Origin: Euhalothece natronophila Z-M001
GTDB lineage: Bacteria; Cyanobacteriota; Cyanobacteriia; Cyanobacteriales; Rubidibacteraceae
NCBI RefSeq assembly: GCF_007904085.1
Contig: NZ_CP042326.1
Coordinates: forward strand, 868,001-932,000
Direction of reading: 5' to 3'
Length of the DNA stretch: 64,000 bases
This document shows positions 10,609-46,196 of the stretch, piece by piece. The notes under the pieces are model-generated. The model had not been told where the DNA came from. It saw only the letters and a list, made by a program, of their open reading frames with translations, and searched no databases. Position numbers and translations under genes: made by a program. Every line of letters begins with the position of its first letter. Position 1 is the first letter of the stretch.

Positions 10609-10956
10609 ATGGCTCGATATACCTGTACCTTTTCGGTTGCGATTGATTTAGAACGATTACAGTCTTCTTTGAAGGAGATTTTAGAATCCTGTCATTTGGA
10701 AATTATTTACGATACGGGAGAATATATTATGGCGCGGGAAGTTCCAAACCGCGCGCCTTTTCCGAAGTTAGTTACAGCGGAAGTCTTAATTGACCGCACT
10801 ACTGCCACACCAGAAGAAGTACGTATGAATTTAGTGATGAAAAATGAAGAACTCCCTTTGCAAAAGGATAATCACTGTCACCAGATGTTTGATTTAATTC
10901 AACAGGCTTTAGTGGAATACTCACAATGGGAACTTTTAGAAAAAGTAGCTGGCTAG
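10609..10956 (+). CDS. conserved hypothetical protein
   Basis: A 115-residue soluble protein, MARYTCTFSVAIDLERLQ to LLEKVAG, that I recognise only as a small alpha/beta protein of cyanobacterial type with no diagnostic motif. It has a start codon after a weak upstream purine stretch and a 184-bp leader without other genes. Its last four bases overlap the 3' end of the WD40 gene on the opposite strand (convergent). No function is suggested. Confidence 0.65.
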   Translation: MARYTCTFSVAIDLERLQSSLKEILESCHLEIIYDTGEYIMAREVPNRAPFPKLVTAEVLIDRTTATPEEVRMNLVMKNEELPLQKDNHCHQMFDLIQQALVEYSQWELLEKVAG

Positions 10957-12452
10957 ACACATAACTCTGTTGTCCACTCATTTGGTTCTGTTGGTCCACG
11001 ACGACATTGTTGTTTGCGACCGACCCAAGTGAGCTCCCAAGAGCTATCACTTTGTTTTTCAAATTCTAAACGGTATCGTACCGCTCCTATTGCGTCATCT
11101 TTTAAGTTGGTTTGAGTAACAGTGACAAGTTTTTGATTGGTTGCAGTTTCTTCGCTGATAATATTTTCCTCGGTTGCGCCAAATTTCTCTGTTAGACCAT
11201 AAGTCTCTTCCGCAAAAGTTTTTGGGTTTTCAGTGGTGCGAGAGGCAGGTAATTCTTGGGCTTCATAATTAGCACGATGATCATTTTCTGCATGATCAGA
11301 GGTGGAAGCACCAGCTCGCCAAATACGAATAATGGGAGAGGGATAAGTGGATGGTAGTCCAGACCAGGCTAAGGTTTGCTCATCATCACTAAACGCGATC
11401 GCGCTTGCGCCTCCTTGTTGGCGAATTAAAATACTATTTTGAATTGGATTCCCTTCTAAATCCACTAATAAGGCATTCCGAAATCCTCCTCCTAGCATAG
11501 AACCATCAGGGCTAACCGCAACCGAAGAGCGACCAAAATACTCGTAACTATTCAGGGATTGCTCATTTTCCCAATCCCAGACAGTGAGTTGTTGAACAGA
11601 CTCGGGATAATTACTTTGGGTAATTAATTTTTCCCCATCAGGGGTAAAGGCAACAGTTTTAAGGGGGTCTGTTGTGGATAATGTCCCTGTCTGAGTCTGA
11701 TTACTGGCATCCCAGAGGCGAACATTGGTGTTATCTCTGGTGTCGCCAAAATTAGCACCAATAGTTGCAAGGGTTTGACCATCAGGACTAAGCGCGATCG
11801 CGCTAACAGGTTGCTCTTCAATGGTTTGTTCCTTGGTGCCATTACTGAGATTCCAAAGTTGCACTTCACGACCACAAGCTGCCCAAAGAGAACCGCCATT
11901 AGGGGTAAACTCGAGATCTCGACAACCGTTTTCGGCTAATTTCTGTTGGGGATTCCCGGTTTGAACATCCCAAAGAATGAGAGAATCTTGGGGAAATAAT
12001 CCTTGACTCCAACTTGCAGTAGCAAGGGTTTGACTATCAGGGCTAAACGCGATCGCGCTAACAGGAACCTTTAAGCCTCCTTCTACTGTTTCATGTCCAG
12101 CCAACTCATTTAAAAGTTCCCCAGACTCCACATTCCAAATTTTAATGGCATCGGTACTGACACTAGCTAAATATTGCCCATCAGGACTAAACGCTAATTC
12201 AGTTACTTCCTCCTCGTGATGGTTTTCAATTTCATGAATCATTTCCGCATTATTCCAATTAGCGGCTTGAGCCAGTAAAACTTCCTCATTGTTACTGTTA
12301 GACTCTTGAGGTAATAAAGTTTCCTCATTCAACTCCTCGCCTAGTGAATTAGCCTCATCTGTTAAAGAATTAACACAACTTAACTGTGCAAATAAAAGAA
12401 CAGTACAGCCAACTTGTAAAGTAACTTTTGAAATTATTTGATGATATAGCAT
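10953..12452 (-). CDS. exported WD40-repeat protein with C-terminal cyanobacterial cysteine motif
   Basis: Residues 1-26 form a hydrophobic leader ending AQLSC, possibly a weak lipobox. After an acidic linker come about six or seven WD40-type blades (from about residue 68 to 380), marked by repeated AFSPDGQ, LASVSTDAIKIWN and LILWDVQTG units. The C-terminal segment (SWELTWVGRKQQCRRG to ELCV) resembles a tail found in many cyanobacterial lipoproteins, with paired cysteines. It is probably a cell-surface or periplasmic scaffold; no enzymatic role is visible. HIP1 palindromes fall at the equivalent codons (SAIA) of three blades. A beta-barrel-like protein gene lies upstream on the same strand. 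Confidence 0.78.
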   Translation of the reverse strand: MLYHQIISKVTLQVGCTVLLFAQLSCVNSLTDEANSLGEELNEETLLPQESNSNNEEVLLAQAANWNNAEMIHEIENHHEEEVTELAFSPDGQYLASVSTDAIKIWNVESGELLNELAGHETVEGGLKVPVSAIAFSPDSQTLATASWSQGLFPQDSLILWDVQTGNPQQKLAENGCRDLEFTPNGGSLWAACGREVQLWNLSNGTKEQTIEEQPVSAIALSPDGQTLATIGANFGDTRDNTNVRLWDASNQTQTGTLSTTDPLKTVAFTPDGEKLITQSNYPESVQQLTVWDWENEQSLNSYEYFGRSSVAVSPDGSMLGGGFRNALLVDLEGNPIQNSILIRQQGGASAIAFSDDEQTLAWSGLPSTYPSPIIRIWRAGASTSDHAENDHRANYEAQELPASRTTENPKTFAEETYGLTEKFGATEENIISEETATNQKLVTVTQTNLKDDAIGAVRYRLEFEKQSDSSWELTWVGRKQQCRRGPTEPNEWTTELCV

Positions 12453-12477: not shown

Positions 12478-12999
12478 TTAAAATTGTAATCCCATTCCTC
12501 CTTGTAAGGAAAAAGCAGTTCCCCCGCCTTCACGAAAGGCATCAAATGTCACAATCGCATTACCAAATAAGACAGTATTTTCGTCAGGAACCATAAAGTC
12601 AATACCGGGCTGAATGGCAAAACTGGTTTGATCTCCCACGGGAGAGGGAGAATCTCCTGTAGCAAAGGAAGCGCCTGCTCCTAGATAAACATCCGTTTGC
12701 CAATTAATGGGAATATCATAAGAAACTGTTGGAACAATAGCAGTGCCTGCACCAATTAAACTCTGAGTACGCAGGGAAATGGGAGCTTCTAACAGCTTAT
12801 AACGAACGCCTATCACTCCCCCAAATTGTTCTCCTTGACCCCGACTATCTTCTTGGCTACCGTAGGTAACACCAACTCCCATATAACTTCCATAAGCTGC
12901 TTGTGCAGAGGCAGTTTCAGTTACCAATAATAAAGTAGCGGTAATGGTGGTTAGGCCTAAAAAAAGTTTTATCATCTCTTTCATCTGATCTCTCTCCAT
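12478..12999 (-). CDS. outer-membrane beta-barrel-like protein with signal peptide
   Basis: The protein has a signal peptide (MIKLFLGLTTITATLLLVTE, cleavage near TASAQA) followed by alternating amphipathic beta-strands with many glycines and aromatics. It ends in GGMGLQF, whose C-terminal phenylalanine is typical of outer-membrane barrels. At 173 residues it would form a small 8-stranded porin-like barrel. Two starts are possible: ATG at 12999 or ATG at 12984 (MKEMIKLF), the latter giving a more usual signal peptide and a GGAG-type ribosome site. It is 25 bp upstream of the WD40 gene on the same strand, so a two-gene envelope operon is likely. Confidence 0.75.
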   Translation of the reverse strand: MERDQMKEMIKLFLGLTTITATLLLVTETASAQAAYGSYMGVGVTYGSQEDSRGQGEQFGGVIGVRYKLLEAPISLRTQSLIGAGTAIVPTVSYDIPINWQTDVYLGAGASFATGDSPSPVGDQTSFAIQPGIDFMVPDENTVLFGNAIVTFDAFREGGGTAFSLQGGMGLQF

Positions 13000-13464
13000 A
13001 GCGAAGTTATCCTTAAATTTTAACCCTTATTGGAAAAAGTTAGGCAAAGTGTCATTAACTTCCTAATTATTAATCTATTGTTTTTGATAGTTTCTAAAAC
13101 AAAAATTGAATGTAGGGAGCTTGATTTTCCTTTAGTTAATTTACTCTTGAGATAAATCAAGTCTAAAGTGTTTAAATTGAATTTTCCGTAATAATTACTA
13201 CTATTTTGGTAAAAAGATTTAAGTGCGCGATCGCGCTTTCTTGCTTTTATTTAAATACAGATCTTTTGTCAGACTTTGAAAGAATGATTATAATCAGTCT
13301 TCCTTCATTGACTTGAGTCCTTAAAACAGTAATTTTTAAGTTTTCTTAACAAAACTTAATCATGCAAGAAAAAGGACAATATGATAGACTCTCTAAAGTG
13401 AGTTTCCAAGAGGTTATTTCTCTACTCATTCAGAAATTCTAAAGAAAGAATAAAGAGAATCAAA
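13000..13464. other. 465-bp divergent intergenic region
   Basis: AT-rich region between the leftward barrel gene and the rightward globin operon; no ORF of substance. It contains an extended HIP1 palindrome GCGCGATCGCGC at 13225-13236. A possible minus-10 element TATGAT lies at about 13381, some 80 bp before the globin gene. Promoters for both directions must lie here, but I see no clear minus-35 partner or known operator. Confidence 0.4.
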
Positions 13465-14016
13465 ATGGCACAAGACAGACAAAGTTGGGCAATAAAAGAT
13501 GAAGCGATTTATGAAGACCTAGTACAGTTAATGAACTTAACTAGTGAAGATATTAATCTATTAAAAGAGCTTTACCCTGAAGCTGAAAAACGAGTTCGCG
13601 AAATGACAGACGACTTTTATAGTAGGTTATTTGCCCATGAAATGACCAAAGAATACTTCGAGGGTAAAGACATGGAGTATCTACACAAAATGATTGGAAA
13701 TTGGTTCTTAGATCTATTTAGGGGAAATTACGATCAAGACTATGTTAAGCAGCGGTTGAGAATTGGTCATATTCACGTAAAAATTGGCTTACCAGTCCGT
13801 TACCCTTTAGCAATGATTGATATTATTAACGCTCATGGTGAAAAAATTGCTGAAACTGGAAGTAATCCTGAAAAAGCGAAAGAAGCGGTGCAAAAAGTGA
13901 CTGCTTTAGATATTGCCATATTTAATCAAGCCTACGAAGATAACCAACTTAATCACCTTGTAGAATTAGTGGGCAATGAACGTTTAGCCAGAAGACTTTT
14001 ACAAGGATTAGGCTAA
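13465..14016 (+). CDS. stand-alone protoglobin (globin-coupled-sensor type heme domain)
   Basis: The 183-residue protein is a single globin domain of the protoglobin/globin-coupled-sensor class, the heme O2-sensing fold of HemAT. The proximal histidine is H104 in RIGHIHVKIGLP, matching the F-helix signature H-V-[KR]-I-G-L. The N-terminal part (VREMTDDFYSRLFAH) matches the Z-A-B helix region. There is no attached transducer domain, so output must go through a partner. It is the first of four same-strand genes (spacings 48, 47 and 18 bp) followed by roadblock, PATAN and small GTPase proteins. I infer an O2/NO/redox input for that module. Confidence 0.88.
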   Translation: MAQDRQSWAIKDEAIYEDLVQLMNLTSEDINLLKELYPEAEKRVREMTDDFYSRLFAHEMTKEYFEGKDMEYLHKMIGNWFLDLFRGNYDQDYVKQRLRIGHIHVKIGLPVRYPLAMIDIINAHGEKIAETGSNPEKAKEAVQKVTALDIAIFNQAYEDNQLNHLVELVGNERLARRLLQGLG

Positions 14017-14064
14017 CACCAGGAAATAGAAAGTATTTAACAAAGAGCAGAAAAGGAGAAAATA

Positions 14065-14436
14065 ATGGGAATTAACGTTGAAAAATTAAATCAAATTCTT
14101 CAAGAATTTGTCAGTACAACCAGTGATATTCAAGGAGCGGCTTTGGTTACTCCTGATGGACTCCCCCTTGCTACAACTCTTCCTGGACAAATGGATGAAG
14201 ATCGGGTGTCCGCTATGTCAGCTTCGATGTTGTCATTAGGAGAACGAATTGGTAAAGAACTATCCCGCGGCAATGTGGAAAGGATTTTTGTTGAAGGGGG
14301 AGACGGTTATGGCATTTTAACCAGTTGTACCGAAGAGTCCCTATTTTTAGTATTAGCAAGTCATGAGGCAAAACAGGGAGTGTTAATGCTAGAGATCAAA
14401 CGCATTTTACAAGAACTGCGCTCGGTTTTTAGTTAA
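14065..14436 (+). CDS. roadblock/LC7 domain protein (MglB-like)
   Basis: The 123-residue protein is one roadblock/LC7 domain. It opens with a helix (LNQILQEFVSTTSDIQGAAL), then the strand-turn VTPDGLPLATTLP, and ends with a long helix (MLEIKRILQELRSVFS). Roadblock proteins dimerise and act as GTPase-activating or scaffold partners of Mgl/Gtr-type small GTPases, as MglB does for MglA in Myxococcus. A GTPase of this type is encoded two genes downstream in the same operon, which strongly supports that pairing. A ribosome site AAAGGAGA precedes ATG 14065. Confidence 0.9.
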   Translation: MGINVEKLNQILQEFVSTTSDIQGAALVTPDGLPLATTLPGQMDEDRVSAMSASMLSLGERIGKELSRGNVERIFVEGGDGYGILTSCTEESLFLVLASHEAKQGVLMLEIKRILQELRSVFS

Positions 14437-14483
14437 ACTCTAAAGACTTTACACTCTAAAATTAAGGAATAATAGGTAGAATA

Positions 14484-15338
14484 ATGGCACTTAGCGGTTT
14501 TCTCAACGATTTTTCTCTCGGAGAGACATTTCAAGTTCTCGAACAAGGAGAAAAAACAGGCTTACTTTCCATTCGAGAGTTAAAACCAACCAATCTTTCT
14601 AAACAGGAAACTGCCCCTGACCAAAAATACTATATTTGGTTTAAACAAGGACGTATCATTGCTGCTGCTGATCGTAAAGATCATCAAGGTTTACAGACAC
14701 TTATGACAAAACGGGGTTGGGTAAGAGAAGAAACCTTGAAAGAAATCTATCAAAATAGCAAAGGGGATAAGCCTCTAGGTTTAAGCCTAAAATCTCAAGG
14801 GCTTTTAGATCACAATCAGCTTAAACTCTTATTTGTGACCCAAGTGATGCAACAGGTTTGCAGTCTTTTTAAGCTGGATCGGGGGTTCTTCTTATTTGAA
14901 CAGGGGGTTGCCCCCTCCTTTGCAGAAATGACCGGTTTGAGTAAACCAGCAACAGAATTAACTCTAATGGGGTTACGGATGCTCAAAAATTGGACTCCCC
15001 TCGCTGATAAACTTCCTGAAGCCAATTCCGGTTTAATTTCTTTAATCAATACCGAACCATCTTATACTCTGAGTGCAGAAGAATGGGAGGTTTGGAAATA
15101 TTCAAATGGAAAAACGGCTCTCTCCACCATGGCAAATAAGTTACAAATTCCTCTCGAAAAAGTGCAGCAAATTGCTTTTCGTCTCATTGTCATTGGCATT
15201 GTAGAGGAACTTCCCATGGCGGAAATGTTGCCACCTGAGACAGACACCACATCTGAAGAGGAAATTCAAGAACCTGCAACAGTGAGTCACTCTTTCTTAA
15301 ATCAGTTGACGAGCTTTTTACAGAGTAAAGCACAGTAA
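14484..15338 (+). CDS. PATAN (DUF4388) domain protein
   Basis: Residues 1-110 form a DUF4388/PATAN domain: LSGFLNDFSLGETFQVLEQG, then GLLSIRE, YYIWFKQGRIIAAADR and a helical tail. The following part (to residue 284) is helical, with a winged-helix-like segment around residues 190-245 (KTALSTMANKLQIPLEKVQQI) and an acidic end. PATAN domains occur in cyanobacterial response regulators that control type IV pilus motors during phototaxis, and in Mgl-type clusters. Here no receiver domain is attached, so input probably comes from the globin or GTPase encoded on either side. It lies 18 bp upstream of the GTPase gene. Confidence 0.85.
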   Translation: MALSGFLNDFSLGETFQVLEQGEKTGLLSIRELKPTNLSKQETAPDQKYYIWFKQGRIIAAADRKDHQGLQTLMTKRGWVREETLKEIYQNSKGDKPLGLSLKSQGLLDHNQLKLLFVTQVMQQVCSLFKLDRGFFLFEQGVAPSFAEMTGLSKPATELTLMGLRMLKNWTPLADKLPEANSGLISLINTEPSYTLSAEEWEVWKYSNGKTALSTMANKLQIPLEKVQQIAFRLIVIGIVEELPMAEMLPPETDTTSEEEIQEPATVSHSFLNQLTSFLQSKAQ

Positions 15339-15356
15339 TTAATATTAGGTTAAGCT

Positions 15357-15899
15357 ATGGAATTAATGCGCTTAGTCATTACCGGTCCTGTGAGCGCAGG
15401 GAAATCAACCTTTATTCACTCTGTCAGTGAAATTGATGTGGTGGATACAGATGCAATCGCTACTGATGAAACGAAAGAGATAAAAGCAAAAACCACTGTC
15501 GCTATGGATTTTGGGAAGCTCCGATTTAGCCCAGAATTTGCCATGCACCTTTATGGAACCCCTGGTCAAGAACGGTTCGACTTTATGTGGGATTTGTTAA
15601 TTCGTAAAGCTCATGCCTACATTTTATTGGTGGCAGCGAATCAGCCGCAAGAATTTCGTTCGGCTCGGCGGATTATGACATTTATGAACCAACGAGTTCA
15701 AATTCCGATGATGATTGGGATTACTCATACGGATTGTGATAAAGCTTGGGGAACAGACAACATCGCGATCGCGCTCGGCTTTTCTGCCAGTAATTCTCCT
15801 CCCTTACAAGTGGTTAATCCCCTCGATACTAGCTCCGTTGCCCAAACCCTGCTGACTCTTGTGCAAAAATTTGATACTGCAGCTACAACCAACTCCTAA
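15357..15899 (+). CDS. Mgl/Arf-like small GTPase (COG2229 type)
   Basis: The 180-residue protein has the G-box series of a small GTPase. The P-loop is GPVSAGKST (residues 10-18), switch I has a threonine (AKTTVAMDFG), switch II is LYGTPGQERF, and the G4-like motif is THTD instead of NKxD. It carries no membrane anchor. The PGQE switch keeps the Ras-type glutamine. GTPases of this class pair with roadblock proteins, one of which is encoded two genes upstream. As the last gene of the globin operon it is the likely output switch, perhaps for polarity or pilus control (inference). An extended HIP1 palindrome lies inside the gene at about 15765. Confidence 0.88.
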   Translation: MELMRLVITGPVSAGKSTFIHSVSEIDVVDTDAIATDETKEIKAKTTVAMDFGKLRFSPEFAMHLYGTPGQERFDFMWDLLIRKAHAYILLVAANQPQEFRSARRIMTFMNQRVQIPMMIGITHTDCDKAWGTDNIAIALGFSASNSPPLQVVNPLDTSSVAQTLLTLVQKFDTAATTNS

Positions 15900-43527: not shown

Positions 43528-44501
43528 GTTGGAGTGATTTTCACGCCAGAATTCACAAAACTCTCCGCCAACGAAGACTACTTCCGGAAAGGTCAAGAAT
43601 TATTTTGGCAGTATCTGGGGGACAAGATTCTTTGTCTGTGTTAAAGTTATTCTCGGATTTACAACCTAAATGGCAATGGGAGTTAGCCGTTGCTCATTGC
43701 GATCATCGCTGGACTGAAGATGAGGGAATGGCTACCCATGTGCAAAAAGTTGTAGAAACCTTTGGTCTCCCATTTTTTTTACTGCGGGCTAAAGAGCCGA
43801 TTGTCGAAACTGAAGCCGCAGCCAGAAAGTGGCGATATGAAGTTCTTACTCAATGTTGCCTAGAACAAGGGTATGACTATTTAGTAACGGGGCATACTGG
43901 CAGCGATCGCGCTGAAACACTGTTATATAATCTCATTCGAGGCAGTGGCAGTGATGGGTTACAAGCCCTGACTTGGCAAAGATCTCTTACGCCTCATTTA
44001 ACCTTAGTTCGTCCCCTGCTAAACTTTTTTCGCTCAGAAACCCAAGCAATTTGCGATCAATTTAAGCTCCCAATTTGGGAAGATCCAGCTAACAATAATC
44101 TGGCTTACGCTAGAAATCGCCTGAGAAAGCAAATTTTGCCTGAACTTAAAGCCCATTTTAATCCACAGGTAGAACTTGCCCTTGCCCAAACTAGTGAAGT
44201 TTTGCGCTCTGAAACTGAGTATTTACAACAACTGGCTAGTGATCTTTTTCAAAAAGCCTCCTCTGAGCAAGCAAGTCACTCTCTCTTGCGTCAGCCCCTA
44301 AAAAATTCGCCTCTCGCTCTGCAAAGAAGAGTTATGCGCTTATTTTGGCATCACAATTTTACGATTGCTCCTACTTTTAACCAAATAGAAGAACTAACTG
44401 CTCTCATTCACGCTCCCAATGGCAGCCGTACCTCTTCTTTTCCTAACAATTGTTATGCCCAAGTAAAAGCAAATATTATCTACTTACAATCATCAAGATA
44501 A
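43524..44501 (+). CDS. tilS: tRNA(Ile)-lysidine synthase
   Basis: TilS converts C34 of the CAU anticodon of tRNA-Ile2 to lysidine so that it reads AUA. The N-type ATP pyrophosphatase motif SGGQDS is at residues 31-36, followed by AVAHCDHRWTEDE, YLVTGHTGSDRAETLLYNL and NLAYARNRLRKQILP. The C-terminal part (about 215-325) is the shorter cyanobacterial form. It is coupled to the regulator gene upstream. Its 3' end overlaps hmpF by nine bases on the opposite strand. Confidence 0.93.
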   Translation: MSWSDFHARIHKTLRQRRLLPERSRIILAVSGGQDSLSVLKLFSDLQPKWQWELAVAHCDHRWTEDEGMATHVQKVVETFGLPFFLLRAKEPIVETEAAARKWRYEVLTQCCLEQGYDYLVTGHTGSDRAETLLYNLIRGSGSDGLQALTWQRSLTPHLTLVRPLLNFFRSETQAICDQFKLPIWEDPANNNLAYARNRLRKQILPELKAHFNPQVELALAQTSEVLRSETEYLQQLASDLFQKASSEQASHSLLRQPLKNSPLALQRRVMRLFWHHNFTIAPTFNQIEELTALIHAPNGSRTSSFPNNCYAQVKANIIYLQSSR

Positions 44502-46196
44502 ATTAGCTAATAGTTCTTTGACCTTTAATAAAGGATCTTTGCTGCCGTTATCACTGGCATAATTATTGGTTGCGCTTACTTGATCAAGATATTTTTTGAT
44601 TTCTTGGAGTTCTTCTTCACGTTTTTGAAGAATCTCCCCATTAACAGTAACTCGAGTTAATAACTCATTAGCTTCTTTTTGAATGGCTTGCCAGTTATTT
44701 TCTAGTTCCTTAAGTTTTTCACAACTTGCCTCATAGTCTTCTCTTTGCTGTTTAACTTGTTCTTCAATTTCTTCGAGTTGAGACTGTAATTGTTCAATTT
44801 CATCATTGACTTGATGAAACTCATCTTCACTGTAATCACGTTGGCTATCAATTTTATTAAAAATCGGACTCAAATCAACTTTTGAGGCTGTCTCTTCTAT
44901 CTCTGAATTTCCTTGACGACGTTTTAAAATTTCCTTGTATTGCTCTAAAATATCTTCCCTTGCCATTAAGTTCCGACGCTGACCCACAATAGTTTTCTCA
45001 AGAAAACGAAAGCGATCTTGTTCTTCGGCTAATTCATTTTTTATATTTTCTTCTTCTGCACTACCTGCTTTACTTAATTGGTCTTCTAATTCCCGAACAC
45101 TTTGCAGTTGATAATCTAATTCTTCTTCTTGATCTTTAACAAAAGATACCGCATCTTCAAAGGATTTTTTCATCGTCTCTAGTTCTTGCTCTAGTTCTTC
45201 GATGGGCATCTGTTCTAAAGATTGCGTATCTACTTCCTGCTGGATTTTTAATTGTGGTGAATTAATCACCAACCGAGATAACACATCTCTGGCTTCACAT
45301 TGCTTTTGTAATTGAGTTCCAATATAAGTAACAATTTGTTGTTTAGTATCAATTTGGCTTTGAACCGTAGCTAAGTTACGTTGATTTTCGAGTAGTTTTC
45401 TTTCCTTTTCTTGTAATTCTTGACGGAAATTTTTTAAGTTGTCACTAGCTTGTTGCGCTTCCTTTTCTTTAGTTTCAGCCTCTTGTCGTTGCTGATCAAG
45501 GTTTTGCCATTGTCCCTGAATCGCTTTTAAGGATTGATTGACGGATTCTTGAGCACCCTGAATGGCTTCTGCAGGAGGTTGCACTCCCTCAAGTTGTTCT
45601 ACTAAATCCTGTAAGGATTGCGCTTGTTCTGGCGTTAACCCCTGCTTACCCTTTAACTCCTCTTCCAGGTTTTCTAACCGTTGCTGTTCGCCTCGTAACT
45701 GTTCCCAAGCCCCCTCTAATTCAGCGCGATCGCGCTCCCATTGTTCTCGTAATTTTTCAATTTCTTCCCGTTCTTGTTCTAATTGACTTAATTGTTCCTC
45801 TTTTTCTGCTAATTGCTCCTCACTTTGTTCTAACTCTTCTTGACGACGATTGAGTTCATTGGCCTGGTAACTAAGAGATTGTTTCCATTGCTCAATTTCT
45901 TCTTGTTGACTCTTGTTTTTTTCTACTTGACGAGAAAAAGATTGCAACCACTTAGCAACTTTTTCCCCCGCTAATTCTACTTTCCCCTGAACTTGACGAT
46001 TAGCTCCTACATTAATGGCAACCAAAGCCCCCTCACCTAAATCCTCGGTCACATCATCTGTCGTTACTGTGTCATCTCCAGGAATGGTAGTCCAACGATT
46101 ATCATTTTGCTGACAAGCCAATAATTGAAGAACGGTGGTTTTCGTTCCCCCCATAAACGGTTTCGACTGCTTTTTTACTTCTGCGATATAAAGCAC
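44493..46196 (-). CDS. hmpF: pilus motility taxis protein HmpF
   Basis: The N-terminal 85 residues (MLYIAEVKKQ, TTVLQLLACQQNDNRW, LGEGALVAINVGANRQVQGK) match the head of HmpF, and the rest (about 90-540) is a very long coiled coil rich in Glu, Gln and Lys. HmpF is needed for type IV pilus motility and phototaxis in filamentous cyanobacteria and has unicellular relatives. The frame opens with GTG at 46196, preceded by GAGG at good spacing, and gives the family's usual N-terminus. The same chromosome carries the globin/PATAN/GTPase operon, also of motility type. Confidence 0.85.
   Translation of the reverse strand: MLYIAEVKKQSKPFMGGTKTTVLQLLACQQNDNRWTTIPGDDTVTTDDVTEDLGEGALVAINVGANRQVQGKVELAGEKVAKWLQSFSRQVEKNKSQQEEIEQWKQSLSYQANELNRRQEELEQSEEQLAEKEEQLSQLEQEREEIEKLREQWERDRAELEGAWEQLRGEQQRLENLEEELKGKQGLTPEQAQSLQDLVEQLEGVQPPAEAIQGAQESVNQSLKAIQGQWQNLDQQRQEAETKEKEAQQASDNLKNFRQELQEKERKLLENQRNLATVQSQIDTKQQIVTYIGTQLQKQCEARDVLSRLVINSPQLKIQQEVDTQSLEQMPIEELEQELETMKKSFEDAVSFVKDQEEELDYQLQSVRELEDQLSKAGSAEEENIKNELAEEQDRFRFLEKTIVGQRRNLMAREDILEQYKEILKRRQGNSEIEETASKVDLSPIFNKIDSQRDYSEDEFHQVNDEIEQLQSQLEEIEEQVKQQREDYEASCEKLKELENNWQAIQKEANELLTRVTVNGEILQKREEELQEIKKYLDQVSATNNYASDNGSKDPLLKVKELLANLS

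Follow-up and report, generated by a model that had tools for sequence, protein, structure and literature searches.

The polarity switch of Myxococcus and its relatives pairs the small GTPase MglA with the roadblock protein MglB (PMC4316618), and the inputs described for switches of this type, in the portions of the literature available to us, are two-component or chemosensory proteins. The Streptomyces conservons (CvnA-B-C-D) are likewise four-gene units with a sensor, a roadblock protein and a small GTPase, but their sensor is a histidine kinase and the accessible descriptions name no PATAN protein. Here, we analyzed a four-gene locus of the cyanobacterium Euhalothece natronophila Z-M001 in which a protoglobin gene precedes genes for a roadblock/LC7 protein, a PATAN protein and a Ras-like GTPase. 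The locus lies in a stretch of 64,000 nucleotides (NCBI RefSeq assembly GCF_007904085.1, contig NZ_CP042326.1, positions 868,001 to 932,000 of the forward strand), which we call the window and from whose first letter all coordinates are counted unless a genome contig or another locus is named. Our main new result, drawn from comparison of genomes, is that a roadblock-GTPase-PATAN core has at least three companions that can stand in for one another, the globin being one of them.

The four genes follow one another on the plus strand as protoglobin (13465..14016, 183 residues), roadblock/LC7 (14065..14436, 123 residues), PATAN (14484..15338, 284 residues) and GTPase (15357..15899, 180 residues), with intergenic gaps of 48, 47 and 18 bp, and the open reading frames, strands and gaps of the original prediction were all confirmed. 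The placement of the PATAN gene between the roadblock and GTPase genes, and thus ahead of the latter, is unusual, and in L101, the closest relative, the genes stand in the common order. The second protein matches Pfam Robl_LC7 at 4.9e-17, in agreement with its first assignment, and carries the Asp31-Gly32 pair at a frequency of 1.00 among 161 relatives. We call it MglB-like since it has the Robl_LC7 domain, the Asp-Gly pair of group 2-5 partners and an adjoining small GTPase gene, from which the PATAN gene separates it in the window. Solved relatives of the family include other Robl proteins and CvnB5, and by analogy with MglB we propose that the protein would regulate the nucleotide state of the GTPase through an activity of the GTPase-activating or guanine nucleotide exchange type. 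The third protein matches PF14332 (DUF4388, which we take to be the PATAN domain) over residues 4-170 at 4.6e-25. Since this is its only Pfam match at E <= 0.01, it has no receiver domain, as had been supposed; a solved-structure search with it found no relative.

The GTPase matches the Pfam families ATP_bind_1 (8.5e-12), Ras (8.8e-7) and Roc and has a GxxxxGKS/T P-loop (GPVSAGKST), Thr46-Thr47 in G2, GTPGQ in G3 and [TS]HxD in G4, which bears out its identification as a Ras-like small GTPase. The Thr-Thr and GTPGQ columns have a frequency of 1.00 in 157 relatives. The P-loop, the Thr that replaces the arginine finger in G2 and the GTPGQ of MglA groups 2-5 are therefore all present. On the other hand, group 5, the group with cyanobacterial members, has a G4 consensus of [NT]KxD in the accessible part of the classification (Wuichet 2014, PMC4316618), and the window protein reads THTD, with His at 0.97 and Asp at 1.00 of the 157. 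Since G4 departs from this consensus, we call the GTPase MglA-like and do not assign it to group 5, judging by motifs rather than by a tree against the Wuichet 2014 groups. A search with a main-clade GTPase found MglA among its solved relatives (3t12 first, E 9.5e-6), and the same search with the window GTPase alone found no relative. A possible remnant of a second GTPase copy lies outside the window at C1:777500-777598 of the Euhalothece genome, where a 33-residue stretch in a 39-residue frame is 61% identical to the window GTPase.

The first protein matches Pfam Protoglobin (PF11563) at 2.3e-32, and this is the only protoglobin match in the Euhalothece genome (3.52 Mb, 5 contigs). Its sequence relatives in the PDB are 2w31, 8h17 and 5ohe, which are also the top fold matches of its AlphaFold2 (AF2) model (pLDDT, the predicted local distance difference test, 85.8), so that Pfam and fold agree on the stand-alone protoglobin first proposed. 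The sensor globins GsGCS, AfGcHK and HemAT, which share its fold and proximal His, are among its best structural matches. Globin-coupled sensors carry their output domain in the same chain, while the window globin is free-standing: its 183 residues hold no fused C-terminal output domain, and globin and roadblock protein are encoded by two reading frames 48 bp apart. The His of the motif H-V-K-I-G-L is residue 104 (codon 13774..13776, plus strand), the proximal haem ligand by position, and both it and Tyr52 are invariant in 119 of 119 non-redundant aligned relatives. We take His104 to be the proximal HisF8 of the globin-coupled sensor family and Tyr52 to be the distal Tyr. It is probable that the globin senses gas. 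The Pfam match stops at residue 160 and leaves a 23-residue tail (residues 161-183, 13945..14013, plus strand) whose mean modal frequency in the 119 relatives is 0.80 vs 0.76 for residues 20-160. Four tail residues (G170, L174, R177 and G181) are invariant in all 119, including the divergent window lineage, and we infer that this tail is a candidate docking element that may contact the roadblock protein.

To learn how widely the four families occur together and in what order, we searched 242 genomes drawn from the class Cyanobacteriia, the same set for every query. The globin was found in 61 genomes by single-sequence search and in 60 by a 30-row profile, with which the weak match in G008 dropped out, and its bearers span 29 of 121 genera. 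The roadblock search gave 100 genomes, of which 93 were kept (G195, G202, G216, G222, G225, G229 and G235, with matches at E from 1e-14 to 1.6e-4 that fell in other, longer reading frames, were left out), and the GTPase search gave 92, of which 90 were kept (G011 and G031, E ~9e-6, left out). All 60 globin genomes carry the roadblock gene (Fisher P 3.7e-33, this and the other Fisher value below being too small since related genomes overstate independence), and 59 of them also carry the GTPase, G193 being without it.

We next took the stretches around 70 globin places, 68 of which held a recognisable globin. Within ~8 kb of these 68 globins, a roadblock gene was found at 60, a GTPase gene at 57, a PATAN gene at 55 (one on the opposite strand and far off) and all four genes at 54. 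Their strand agrees with that of the globin for 62/62 roadblock, 57/57 GTPase and 58/59 PATAN copies. Among 100 roadblock clusters (ROB clusters), the commonest orders of globin (GLOB), roadblock (ROB), GTPase (GTP) and PATAN genes were GLOB-ROB-GTP-PATAN (15), the same with haemerythrin (14) and GLOB-C4-ROB-GTP-PATAN (10), where C4 is a family described below; since this sample was drawn partly by globin, the counts are not population frequencies, and the "globin" of L220 is a short fragment with a stop codon. In a set of named genomes, the roadblock gene was present within 6 kb in 75 of the best 80 of 128 loci, the GTPase gene in 65, the PATAN gene in 47 and the complete set of four in 46. 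Many of these loci end at contig ends, and their species overlap with the 242-genome set, so the two are not independent; their genera include Fischerella, Calothrix, Moorena, Pseudanabaena, Dolichospermum, Nodosilinea and Thermosynechococcus. Together, these findings establish the four families as a recurrent cyanobacterial unit, clustered on one strand rather than scattered in relatives, and we regard a functional link among the four genes as very likely.

Two further families recur in these clusters, a bacteriohaemerythrin in 15 and a family of ~155 residues, C4, in 20 of the 68 globin loci. One haemerythrin member matched PF01814 at 2.1e-14, and the rest were called by a profile of 13 members. 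Two C4 members scanned had no Pfam sensor match and no V4R match at E <= 1, while the AF2 model of C4 (pLDDT 91.1) has a V4R/Bet3 fold. It matches the phenol-sensor domains of MopR and PoxR with Z 15.4-16.4 (2.8-3.5 A over 139-144 residues), the V4R-family protein MJ1460 with Z 14.2, Bet3/TRAPPC3 with Z ~13, and H-NOX and guanylate-cyclase haem domains with Z 8.5-8.9. Since its model has the V4R fold and the two scanned members match no V4R sequence model, we call C4 V4R-like; an example stands at L080:7576-8034 on the minus strand. C4 was found in 60 of the 242 genomes, 57 of them with a roadblock gene (Fisher P 9.7e-27), and 50 of 71 C4 places, two short pieces in G191 being left out of the count, lie within 5 kb of it. 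A C4 search of the genome sample found none in the Euhalothece genome.

The distribution of the three families suggests that they take one another's place. In the 28 globin-less genomes with roadblock and GTPase genes, with one roadblock locus each, C4 is present in 17, haemerythrin in 7 and neither in 4, and at least one of the three families is present in 91 of the 100 ROB clusters. A quickly built tree of 96 joined roadblock and GTPase cores required, under parsimony, 16 changes in globin presence, 13 in that of C4 and 10 in that of haemerythrin; a tree of 92 cores required 14, 15 and 10, and 33 of its 88 inner branches had less than 80% support; cuts at contig ends can mimic losses in such counts. 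Some units are doubled, with two roadblock genes, as C4-ROB-GLOB-ROB-GTP-PATAN (L079 and L082), C4-ROB-C4-ROB-GTP-PATAN and, in the named genomes, PATAN-GTP-ROB-GLOB-GTP-ROB-C4, which hints at sensor-roadblock pairs. Since other sensor-type proteins stand in for the globin or accompany it while the core stays constant, the globin behaves like an input part, and its place in the gene cluster is an input-like position refilled by different ligand-binding folds. The original prediction of the globin as input to a GTPase switch thus gains support in part, namely for the recurring unit and for the position of the globin within it.

We propose, with moderate confidence, that the unit is a modular sensor-to-small-GTPase relay of the MglA/MglB kind, with the globin as a haem gas sensor and the PATAN protein as likely effector. 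The globin would bind oxygen (or nitric oxide or carbon monoxide) through a haem held by His104, and binding would alter the globin together with the conserved tail at its C terminus; this tail would in turn act on the roadblock dimer. Like MglB, the roadblock protein would then set the nucleotide state of the GTPase, whose GTP-bound form would act via the PATAN protein. The output would probably be the type IV pilus motor, through which the unit would govern movement on surfaces or attachment as oxygen or redox conditions change. Direct action of the globin on the roadblock protein is, in our view, rather likely, and since three sensor types are swapped, the roadblock protein is the likely common receiver. 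More tentatively, and at somewhat less than even chances, roadblock, GTPase and PATAN may form a constant "plug-in" G-protein pathway of cyanobacteria into which a globin, a di-iron haemerythrin or a V4R/Bet3 sensor has repeatedly been plugged. Gases or metabolites would then signal directly to a small GTPase in bacteria, one output would be oxygen taxis driven by pili, and the V4R-roadblock-GTPase version would match in its parts the TRAPP exchange factors of eukaryotes.

Several observations weigh against this relay. The globin is absent from 28 of the 87 genomes that have both roadblock and GTPase genes, and no roadblock gene lies within ~8 kb of 8 of the 68 globins (L040, L041, L049, L058, L060, L066, L092 and L095), whose genomes carry one elsewhere. 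The conserved globin tail is present in these stand-alone copies too and is thus not specific to the unit. Of the C4 places, 21 of 71 are not near a roadblock gene, some perhaps owing to broken assemblies. Some clusters (ROB-GTP-PATAN-C4-GLOB) place the sensor beside PATAN rather than beside the roadblock gene. The four globin-less loci with no recognised sensor (L185, L192, L194 and L199) all belong to one family and share two genes upstream of the roadblock gene whose products, judged by eye, resemble a membrane permease and a lipoprotein rather than sensors. The pilus link, finally, is drawn from family analogy. In another cluster with no known sensor, a 157-residue protein after PATAN (L213:10159-10632, plus strand) may be a further small sensor.

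We propose the pilus as output by analogy, since PATAN-receiver proteins bind PilB1 in Synechocystis according to the accessible parts of two papers (PMC9090330, PMC12288463), and this analogy, the one ground for the motility step, leaves the pilus as output slightly less probable than not. The pilus motor ATPase family PF00437 has matches in 240 of 242 genomes, so its co-occurrence decides nothing; the Euhalothece genome holds three such matches. In the window, a reading frame of 567 residues occupies 44493-46196 on the minus strand, where hmpF had been proposed. A gas- or ligand-gated GTPase switch could instead act on transcription, envelope polysaccharide, aggregation or development. PatA, the namesake of the PATAN domain, has a role in heterocyst formation, and in Streptomyces a conservon that includes MglA- and MglB-type proteins takes part in forming the aerial mycelium, as far as the accessible sources go; the cyanobacterial PATAN proteins studied so far in those sources, however, bind the pilus motor PilB1, and we judge such other outputs rather unlikely.

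We also considered whether the globin, rather than being a signalling input, is co-transcribed as an enzyme of nitric oxide or oxygen chemistry with a protective or metabolic function. The Methanosarcina protoglobin has nitrite-reductase and peroxynitrite-isomerising activity in the account available to us, and the globin gene of the unit is separate, with no fused output. On the other hand, other genomes fill the globin position with a protein of the V4R fold, a ligand-sensor fold, or with haemerythrin, and the globin tail is conserved outside the haem domain. The only non-module families in at least 12 of the 68 loci are the V4R-like family, haemerythrin and a large family whose sequence looks to be of the signalling type, in an annotation of neighbours that is not exhaustive and leaves room for a reductase in a minority. 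We therefore find an enzymatic role improbable and retain the sensor-to-GTPase relay.

In the window's own family, two of the nine genomes carry the roadblock gene, and these are also the two with a full globin; one of the other seven (G243, same genus) has a weak globin-like match with an internal TAA at C1:3067128-3067496 and no roadblock gene. Since roadblock gene and full globin go together in this way, the unit was gained or lost as a whole. The window globin is 71% identical to that of L101, and the pair is just 22-27% identical to 28 other globins, which could mean that an unrelated globin was swapped in within this genus; the window roadblock protein and GTPase are 54-69% and 47-65% identical, respectively, to the remaining sequences compared. 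However, the C-terminal motif is common to the window and other globins, and the roadblock and GTPase core of the genus also sits on a long branch (0.56), which may speak more for rapid divergence of the whole unit in the window genus than for replacement of the globin. A plasmid search returned only distant globin sensors in seven records. A chance or merely old neighbourhood, with the globin functionally unlinked to the GTPase, is rejected as very improbable despite the eight stand-alone globins, given the invariable roadblock partner in globin genomes (60/60, with the GTPase in 59), the co-location of the genes, the association kept through repeated gain and loss in 29 of 121 genera, and the paired presence in the window's family.

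Upstream of the unit, a promoter-like site (TTGTCA-17-TATAAT, 13266..13294, plus strand) lies ~170 bp 5' of the globin gene; it is an 11/12 consensus match only, and consensus matching found 14 such sites in the region vs 7.1 in shuffles (standard deviation 2.7). The divergent neighbours on the minus strand are a small protein with a sub-threshold match to an outer-membrane beta-barrel (12478-12999) and a WD40-repeat protein (10953-12452). In other genomes, a protein of ~730 residues, NACHT-like by eye, is divergent upstream of nine globin units (L075, L079, L080, L082, L088, L093 and three more). An NCBIfam scan gave only matches below the family cut-offs.

If the proposed relay is true, a roadblock-GTPase pair would take its input straight from a small soluble haem sensor, and such a signalling logic would be new. 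The relay could explain oxygen responses of cyanobacteria, which through their photosynthesis create oxygen gradients in mats. One globin of the unit has already been crystallised: Tlr1989 of Thermosynechococcus (PDB 8h17) is identical over 194 residues to the globin of L034, whose cluster reads GLOB-ROB-GTP-PATAN-HEM (HEM, haemerythrin), and the solved structure thus belongs to a member of the unit. Tlr1989 and the window globin share only 25% identity. We found no paper on Tlr1989 in the open-licence literature searched, and 8h17 comes from a genus in which type IV pilus phototaxis has been studied by gene knockouts, according to the accessible part of PMC9090330.

Searches of the open-licence literature, including some by the Thermosynechococcus locus tags and by pairings of sensor and roadblock, gave no description of the cyanobacterial unit among the matches listed. 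Term searches of reviews on cyanobacterial pili (PMC12288463; GTPase, roadblock, globin), light-controlled motility (PMC5812497; GTPase, Mgl, roadblock, globin) and aerotaxis (PMC13401364; roadblock, GTPase, cyanobacteria) found no mention of these terms. A close counterpart is HGbRL of Methylacidiphilum, a haem globin fused to Roadblock/LC7, for which ligand-driven signalling to the roadblock was proposed (PMC4476040). The same genome encodes a lone roadblock protein next to an MglA-like GTPase (PMC4476040). HGbRL differs in being one fused protein, described as unique to its genus, with a globin of the group of flavohaemoglobins and Vitreoscilla haemoglobin rather than a protoglobin, and neither PATAN nor a sensor swap is mentioned in the part of that paper available to us (PMC4476040). 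The fusion shows that the pairing of globin and roadblock arose with another globin class too. In TRAPP/Ragulator-type assemblies and their Asgard relatives, a Bet3/V4R fold, a roadblock or longin fold and a small GTPase are brought together, as the accessible text of PMC10933270 describes; unlike in these assemblies, the V4R-like protein of cyanobacteria is encoded by a separate gene in relatives and is absent from the window genome. With MglA groups 2-5, the unit has in common GTPGQ in G3, Thr in G2 and the Asp-Gly pair of the roadblock protein, but its G4 reads [TS]HxD against the [NT]KxD of group 5, and adjoining gas or ligand sensors are not described, nor is the word globin used, in the accessible part of PMC4316618. 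Altogether, the cyanobacterial unit, which we have not found described before, is a variant of the MglA/MglB-like switches.

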